Below, in pieces: positions 954 through 4,173 of a stretch of 64,000 nt of DNA. Origin of the DNA: Synechococcus sp. PCC 7502 (GTDB taxonomy: Bacteria > Cyanobacteriota > Cyanobacteriia > Pseudanabaenales > Pseudanabaenaceae); NCBI RefSeq assembly GCF_000317085.1, contig NC_019702.1:1952394-2016393 (forward strand), read 5' to 3'. The first letter of the stretch is position 1, and each line of letters begins with the position of its first letter. The translations under genes were made by a program, and so were the position numbers. The notes below the pieces were generated by a model, which was not told the DNA's origin, ran no database searches, and worked only from the letters and a program-made list of their open reading frames with translations.

Positions 954-1415
954 TTAAAAAATGGAGCGCTGCCCTTCGGGGCTAATCCCAATAATAGTTA
1001 GCTGACAGTCTAAAACCTTATAGCCATACTTTTCGGCAACTTTTTGGCTGATTTCTAAGATTTTGTCGTTCTTAAACTCAATTACAGCATTAGTCTTAAC
1101 ACAGACGAGGTGATGATGGTGATGGGGACGAGGTTGATTGATTTCATAATGCTTATGATCCTCAGTAAGTTCTAGTTCCCGCAAAATTCCCATCCTTGCC
1201 ATCATTTTGACAGTACGGTAAATCGTCGAGAGGCTAATATCTTCTCCTTGGTCTTTGAGACGATTATATAGATCTTCTGCACTTAGATGTTGTCCTTCAG
1301 GTAGGTTTTTAAATGTATTTAAGATTACTTCTCGTTGTGGAGTCATTCGCCAACCTTTAGCATTAAGTTCAGCCCTAAGAATTTCAGGAGTGTAATCTGT
1401 GGTGGCAGAAGTCAT
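954..1415 (-). CDS. fur: Fur-family transcriptional regulator lacking both CxxC motifs
   Basis: Ferric-uptake-regulator family repressor of 153 residues. Seen in order: winged-helix DNA-binding part with GWRMTPQREVIL and SAEDLYNRL, the recognition-helix region SLSTIYRTVKMMARMGILREL, the metal-binding HKHYEINQP and HHHHH stretches, and the dimerisation domain. The reading frame is open upstream to 1553, but that extension overlaps the glnA 3' end and its terminator and has no family resemblance, so ATG at 1413-1415 (MTSATTDY) is taken as the start. Compared with the cyanobacterial FurA pattern, the first CxxC has become CVKT and the second (CPKC) has become SPEG. Only the first Cys and the LDCQL Cys remain. 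It lies downstream of glnA on the same strand, separated by a strong terminator. Confidence 0.88.
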   Translation of the reverse strand: MTSATTDYTPEILRAELNAKGWRMTPQREVILNTFKNLPEGQHLSAEDLYNRLKDQGEDISLSTIYRTVKMMARMGILRELELTEDHKHYEINQPRPHHHHHLVCVKTNAVIEFKNDKILEISQKVAEKYGYKVLDCQLTIIGISPEGQRSIF

Positions 1416-1472
1416 ACCGTTCTCAATAACAAGTTCTTCTTGATAATAGCTGATTTTTTCTTGTTTTGGCAC

Positions 1473-3406: not shown

Positions 3407-3448
3407 TTAAGGTATAAATTATATATTATATATGTATATTAATTATCT

Positions 3449-4173
3449 GGTGTTGCATAATGAAGAATGGGTTCAAGCAAGAGAGATGCAATGTCCAAAG
3501 TGTGGGTCTGAACAAATACGCAAAAATGGAATTAAGCAAGGCAAGCGATGCTGCACATTTGTAGCTGAATGTGGTCGCCAGTTTACAAATCCCACAGAAC
3601 AAACAAAAGCATACCCAGAAACTACAAAACAAACATGCCTGAAGATGTATCTCAATGGGATAGGGGTATTGAAAGAGTTATGGGAGTACATCACACCACA
3701 GTAATTAATTGGGTTAGACAAAAAGGAGAAAAGTTACCCGATTCTATCACTCCTGAAAACTTGCCAGATGTCGGTGAATTAGATGAACTTGAAACTTTTG
3801 TTGGTTTAAAAAAACAAGATCTGGCTATGGACAGCAGTAGACCATTTTTGTAAAGGTATCCTTGCATTGACAGTAGGTGATCGCAGTGCTAAAACTTTTG
3901 AGCCATTATGGGCAATCGTGGCAGCATGGCAATGTTATTTCTACGTCACTGATGGTTGGACTGTATATCCAAGTTTTATCCCTAACGGCGATCAAATTAT
4001 TCGCAAGATGTACATGACCAGAGTTGAGGGTGAAAATTCTCGGCTACGCCACTATCTTGCAAGATTGCATCGTAAAACCTTCTGTTATTCTAAGTCTTTG
4101 GATATGTTGCGTTACTGCTGATTCACTATCTTAATGACCCTTCTATCTGATTCATATTTTTGTCTGCAACGCC
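3449..4173 (+). mobile_element. Degenerate IS1-family insertion sequence
   Basis: Imperfect terminal inverted repeats are visible: GGTGTTGCA at 3449-3457 and TGCAACGCC at 4165-4173. The 725-bp length fits cyanobacterial IS1-like elements. The transposase inside is broken in at least three places. I found no clear 8-10 bp target duplication, consistent with an old insertion or later rearrangement. The element separates a formyltransferase remnant from the antiporter gene region. Confidence 0.65.
3487..4150 (+). pseudogene. IS1-family transposase, frameshifted pseudogene
   Basis: The first segment (from 3487) begins with a zinc ribbon, CPKCGSEQIRKNG then ECGRQF, up to MYLNGIG. The frame then shifts near 3665 to GIERVMGVHHTTVINWVRQ, the helix-turn-helix. 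A second shift near 3815 leads to KIWLWTAVDHFCKGILALTV, then WAIVAAWQCYFYVTDGW and VEGENSRLRHYLARLHRKT. A third shift near 4115 gives LIHYLNDPSI and a stop at 4150. Together these cover a complete IS1/InsAB-type protein with several small deletions, so no functional transposase can be made. Confidence 0.75.

Follow-up and report, generated by a model that had tools for sequence, protein, structure and literature searches.

The window, a stretch of 64,000 nucleotides from the genome of Synechococcus sp. PCC 7502, carries on its minus strand a furA gene whose product lacks both CxxC pairs of canonical cyanobacterial FurA. The gene, the codons concerned and a putative operator are located as follows.

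954–1415, minus strand: furA, encoding 153 residues with two cysteines only (translation and Pfam FUR match).
1101–1103, minus strand: codon of C105, the counterpart of Anabaena C101; kept, C in 46 of 46 orthologues.
1092–1094, minus strand: codon of T108 at the place of canonical C104, where the first CxxC is lost; T in 46 of 46.
1005–1007, minus strand: codon of C137, the counterpart of Anabaena C133; kept, C in 46 of 46 orthologues.
972–983, minus strand: codons of SPEG at the place of canonical C141-x-x-C144, where the second CxxC is lost; S-P-E-G in 46 of 46, with varying synonymous codons.
1419–1447, minus strand: putative FurA operator just before the start codon, made up of half-site ATTATCAAGAA (1437–1447) and inverted half-site TTATTGAGAAC (1419–1429), by sequence match.

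The start codon of furA is the ATG at 1415 (minus strand), and it is this ATG that the operator immediately precedes, as against the start of a longer, TTG-started frame in the ORF list that reaches 1553. The product matched Pfam FUR with an E-value of 3.7e-41 (140.5 bits, cut-off 23.1), which places it in the Fur superfamily with its winged-helix and dimerisation domains. It was 64–69% identical to 18 canonical cyanobacterial FurA rows, 50% identical to a nineteenth (L047) and 23–27% identical to the Zur-like and PerR-like proteins of its own genome. By identity it belongs with cyanobacterial FurA, Zur and PerR being more distant. Between glnA, which ends at 1547, and furA lies a GC stem with a T-run (1473–1510); it resembles a glnA terminator by eye, and the terminator scan did not call it. 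Given this terminator-like stem, furA is probably transcribed from a promoter of its own. At the end of furA, the scan called no terminator. The conserved-neighbourhood test gave a glnA match in 1 of 47 loci, some of which were short. At 3432–4121 of the window, overlapping short plus-strand ORFs have, by eye, the look of a broken insertion-sequence transposase.

In the alignment, residues 105–108 (CVKT) and 145–148 (SPEG) are in register with the canonical CxxC and CPxC. The preliminary description had read CVKT and SPEG in place of the CxxC pairs and had stressed that both pairs were lost together; translation and alignment confirm the replacement and the joint loss. In the numbering of Anabaena FurA (C101, C104, C133, C141, C144), the window protein reads C, T, C, S, G, with C105 and C137 as its sole cysteines. 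The same state was present in all 46 orthologues, window gene included, from three genome families (37 from f1, 8 from f5 and 1 from f28). A sequencing error at these codons had been named there as an objection to the reading. Because the 46 orthologues, 45 of them from other genomes, agree at the five cysteine positions, a sequencing or assembly error is for all practical purposes excluded. The preliminary description had also set its reading against the case that the CxxC pairs are absent throughout the FurA of this lineage, and such an absence is what the 46 orthologues display.

Across these orthologues, two synonymous codons were in use for each Cys, Ser and Glu, three for Thr and Gly, and four for Pro. 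Fixed residues with varying synonymous codons point to purifying selection, both at the replaced residues and at the two kept cysteines. Since 74 of 153 positions were invariant in 41 orthologues, invariance of a single site is not rare in FurA. Among 152 canonical rows, Cys was found at C141 and C144 in every row and at C133 in 147; these rows were picked by their first CxxC, so that the 100% there is given by construction, which does not hold for the 100% at C141 and C144. The second CxxC was strict in 126 rows and had a longer, CPEA-type spacing in 26. The genes read came from a fetched part of the 288 class genomes with a hit. We dropped the truncated rows L178 and L187, the split second-type gene of G035 (L123) and a row with a filler region (L268), and the second copies L122, L124 and L288 were counted apart from the orthologues. 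The SPEG codons contain a GC hairpin, GCCCTTCGGGGC. A dispersed or mobile repeat was considered as the source of the SPEG tail and rejected, because the hairpin is present only once in the genome.

At 3,583,735 bp in 3 contigs, the genome is 99.93% complete; our search threshold brought out three Fur-family genes in it, and of these only the window gene is a FurA. L002 and L003, the products of the remaining two, each keep two CxxC pairs. The closest solved chain of L002 was 7ne9 (E 3.8e-30), whose title names a zinc sensor from a marine cyanobacterium, followed by M. tuberculosis FurB; that of L003 was B. subtilis PerR. On the strength of these chains we regard L002 as Zur-like and L003 as PerR-like. 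NCBIfam named neither paralogue: no model scored above its cut-off, and for L002 a Bacillus Fur model came first and Zur sixth. G005 likewise keeps two CxxC pairs in both its Zur-like and its PerR-like protein, as G006 does in its PerR-like protein, which indicates that the loss is peculiar to FurA. The idea that the gene is a paralogue with a changed role, and that the genome has a canonical FurA at another locus, fares badly against these results, since a nearly complete genome yielded only a Zur-like and a PerR-like protein besides the window gene; we consider it very improbable. A fourth Fur-family protein of G005 (L127:116-718) has no CxxC pair and in this differs from the Zur-like and the PerR-like protein encoded there.

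The AlphaFold model of the window FurA had a mean pLDDT of 83 and a short helix at residues 146–150. Its closest solved fold was P. aeruginosa Fur (1mzb; Z 15.8, rmsd 2.4, 133 aligned residues), and other Fur structures, including MgFur (4rb1, Z 15.0), came within Z 1 of the best. In a gap-free stretch, C93, C96, H125 and C133 of E. coli Fur (8j6w) align with C105, T108, C137 and S145, the E. coli positions being counted from the ligand numbers in PMC11910503. One of the four structural zinc-site cysteines is left in the window FurA, and with both CxxC pairs gone together the Cys4 zinc site cannot form. Table 2 of that paper does not list a Cys4 site for PaFur, VcFur, MgFur or RlMur, which means that stable Fur proteins without it are known; the window FurA is like these four in the absence of the site and has a fold like those of PaFur and MgFur.

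PMC11910503 gives two metal sites for E. coli Fur, H33, E81, H88 and H90, and H87, D89, E108 and H125. Its introduction calls the second site regulatory, and its own results and table 2 assign that role to the first kind. The S2 hinge site is treated as regulatory in PMC5940780. Here, the first-kind (hinge) site is taken as regulatory, after those results, table 2 and PMC5940780. The first set corresponds to H43, E91, H100 and H102 of the window FurA, which were invariant in 29 aligned proteins chosen from the fetched loci. In the second set, a histidine is matched solely at H87 (H99), and H101, L120 and C137 occupy the other positions. C137 may stand in for the metal-binding histidine that is H125 in E. 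coli.

The putative operator is spaced as ATTATCAAGAA-7 nt-TTATTGAGAAC and is close enough to the Anabaena FurA box published in PMC4005646, AAATAAATTCTCAATAAAT, to pass as a FurA box by sequence match. We counted half-sites within 80 bp of the start and took the expectation from shuffles. The perfect half-site ATT(A/C)TCAATAA was found at 33 of 44 C-T type furA genes, the second copies L122, L124 and L288 included (0.05 expected), and at 24 of 154 canonical furA genes; with at most one mismatch, the canonical count was 88 of 154 (1.3 expected). When two mismatches were allowed per half, the inverted half-site pair was present at 36 of 43 C-T type genes (L122 and L124 included) against 0 of 43 control stretches further upstream, and at 27 of 56 canonical genes against 0 of 56; one C-T type and 98 canonical genes had upstream DNA too short for this count. 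Judged by sequence, the operator is kept across the cysteine change, and we infer from this that DNA specificity and self-control were kept as well. The operator was absent at L086, the closest orthologue, from the same-genus genome G006, and present at L124, the second copy of G006. Genome-wide, the half-site ATTMTCAAKAA had 39 matches, compared with 18 for the reversed control. Our look at a regulon covered 33 loci, namely 30 of the 39 sites and three more (one repeat and two among the other 9), which amounts to 32 of 39 sites. The rough ORF caller placed many sites inside genes, wrongly for the furA site (L363), so some sites may be missed. There was no clear iron gene among 10 chosen neighbours of intergenic half-sites, and we claim no regulon beyond furA.

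A Fur match was obtained in all 38 genomes of the order, and 37 had FurA at 77% identity or above; the one without was G035, which is 83% complete. The tail pattern (Asp-Cys, five residues on Gly, then Ser-Pro-Glu-Gly) occurred in 47 of 388 class genomes: 37 of 38 in f1, the family of the window, 8 of 8 in f5, 1 of 1 in f28 and 1 of 1 in f20. The reversed pattern, our control, occurred in 0 of 388. We take f5 and f28 to be probably Thermostichales and relatives, and the bearer lineage is presumably Pseudanabaenales together with Thermostichales and Synechococcus PCC 7336. A literature search, which reached subscription papers in small part, returned no paper on a FurA without both CxxC pairs in Pseudanabaena or Thermostichus. 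Fur proteins without a zinc site are already known in Proteobacteria, and the lineage-wide FurA is a variant of that kind.

Several genomes showed further variants. G034 has a shorter, diverged second FurA-like gene (L122) with CAQT and without the SPEG tail. The G035 gene L123 matches the window FurA at about 52% identity and is split over two frames. In the second FurA of G006 (L124 / L018), a same-genus genome that is possibly a mixed bin, C133 is replaced by Tyr and C101 is the sole one of the five cysteines remaining. G057 and G129 (93-99% completeness) gave no FurA match at thresholds of 1e-28 and 1e-18.

In a FurA tree built without the cysteine columns and the tail, one branch parted the canonical from the C-T-C-S-G proteins (84/73; 87% of bootstrap trees), in a tree that is weak owing to a short alignment and long branches. 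In this gene tree, the inner root of which is uncertain, canonical FurA from the Gloeobacter side joined the remaining canonical proteins and stood away from the SPEG type. For the genomes themselves, 16S was returned by 9 of 30 and rpoB was used in its place; the rpoB tree held 27 of the 30, since G046, G053 and G140 were left out as short or long-branched. In it, f5 with f28, and f1, were each a supported group outside the Gloeobacter side, their mutual order being a fork left open by the tree. A single clade of bearers was not rejected (p-AU 0.434).

Outside f1, f5 and f28, the pattern was found in one genome only, G056 of f20, which carries a canonical FurA (L186) and a complete, diverged second gene (L288) with T and S-P-E-G. 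L288 lies at 239–763 on the minus strand and has an insert before its His-rich stretch. The presence of both genes in G056, and the position of the Gloeobacter-side FurA in the gene tree, would agree with the SPEG type being a second subfamily, which by an early furA duplication or a sideways move replaced the canonical gene. We regard this origin as somewhat unlikely, because the pattern lies outside the three families in only 1 of 388 genomes, L288 is a long branch of unsure position in the FurA tree, and one in-place change with a later transfer to G056 fits the data as well. Since one genome was sampled in the order of G056, duplication with loss and transfer both fit.

The meaning of the kept cysteines can be approached from Anabaena FurA, as described in PMC13421787 and PMC8229018. 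There, reduced C101 binds metal, and its redox state gates metal and DNA binding. The active form is bridged between C104 and C133, and C101-C104 or C101-C101 bonds inactivate it. Heme is bound by C141, and thioredoxin reduces the C141-C144 bond. PMC8229018 describes this FurA as zinc-free even with its CxxC pairs. The window FurA is like Anabaena sp. PCC 7120 FurA in its orthologous family, a similar operator half-site, the cysteines at C101 and C133, and the His/Glu ligands of the hinge site. It differs by T, S and G for C104, C141 and C144, and by this can form none of the published intramolecular disulfides and no C141-heme link; the two CxxC motifs, to which disulfide-reductase activity belongs in the Anabaena-type redox FurA, and the heme ligand are gone. 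By homology, without C141 and C144 there would be no heme ligand and no thioredoxin-reducible C141-C144 bond. By analogy, the heme input, the thioredoxin input and each of the three intramolecular bonds would lose a partner.

The preliminary description had suggested, as one possibility, a regulator insensitive to thiol redox state. On that view, the protein would be an iron-dependent repressor released from thiol redox control, and its two cysteines would either do nothing or serve solely to bind metal. Such a protein would be at home among the Proteobacterial Furs without a Cys4 site (PMC11910503, table 2), and with no CxxC left, the C104-C133, C101-C104 and C141-C144 bonds of Anabaena cannot form. 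In 35 Pelagibacter-type Fur rows, the residue at C101 is D or N, that at C133 is H, and that at 104 is T (31) or S (4), and the Thr fits a filler role in Furs without a Cys4 site. The Pelagibacter-type Furs and RlMur (5fd6) have no Cys at C101 and His at C133; the window FurA has Cys at both. However, all 46 orthologues have retained C133 and C101, which is the redox gate in Anabaena, though the three other cysteines changed. Insensitivity to thiol redox state is in our view unlikely, and it does not follow from the loss of the pairs, given the role of the kept C101 in Anabaena. The reason for the conservation of C101 may nevertheless lie solely in metal binding or packing.

We favor as the probable explanation that the window gene is the single orthologous FurA of its genome, an iron-dependent, self-regulating repressor that has lost the CxxC relay and kept C101 and C133. 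As a dimeric winged-helix repressor, it would bind Fe2+ (or Mn2+) at the His/Glu hinge site and, when metal-loaded, repress furA itself along with iron-uptake genes. C104, C141 and C144 would have given way to T, S and G in an ancestor of the lineage, which would abolish the zinc-type Cys4 site, the Cys-Pro ligand for heme and the dithiols of the CxxC pairs that thioredoxin reduces in Anabaena. The most likely mode of action would be a reduced switch, in which C101 stays an oxidisable thiol beside the regulatory metal. Without the CxxC relay, C101 could be silenced by sulfenylation, by a C101-C101 dimer bond or by a C101-C133 bond. A broader reading, which we put forward tentatively, is that an early-branching lineage runs its iron regulator on a C101 and C133 switch with the thioredoxin and heme inputs removed and, if the duplication holds, that two FurA subfamilies descend from the base of the non-Gloeobacter cyanobacteria, with both present in one genome.

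The published redox, heme and thioredoxin models of FurA are based on Anabaena and on engineered cysteine mutants. A lineage living without C104, C141 and C144 suggests that FurA can do without the CxxC relay and the heme ligand and that its core consists of C101 and C133. The window FurA is a natural protein for testing which cysteines the switch needs, and it cautions against transferring the Anabaena FurA model to all cyanobacteria. The CPEA-type canonical FurA (26 of the 152 canonical rows) likewise has no strict second CxxC; it differs from the window FurA in keeping the first CxxC and C141 and in a longer tail with a further cysteine. On the side of the thioredoxin system, an unusual thioredoxin reductase, an NTR1 that falls within the NTRC group, is reported in PMC9025218 for Synechococcus PCC 7502 and for Pseudanabaena; Pseudanabaena is reported there to be without TrxB and TrxC as well.
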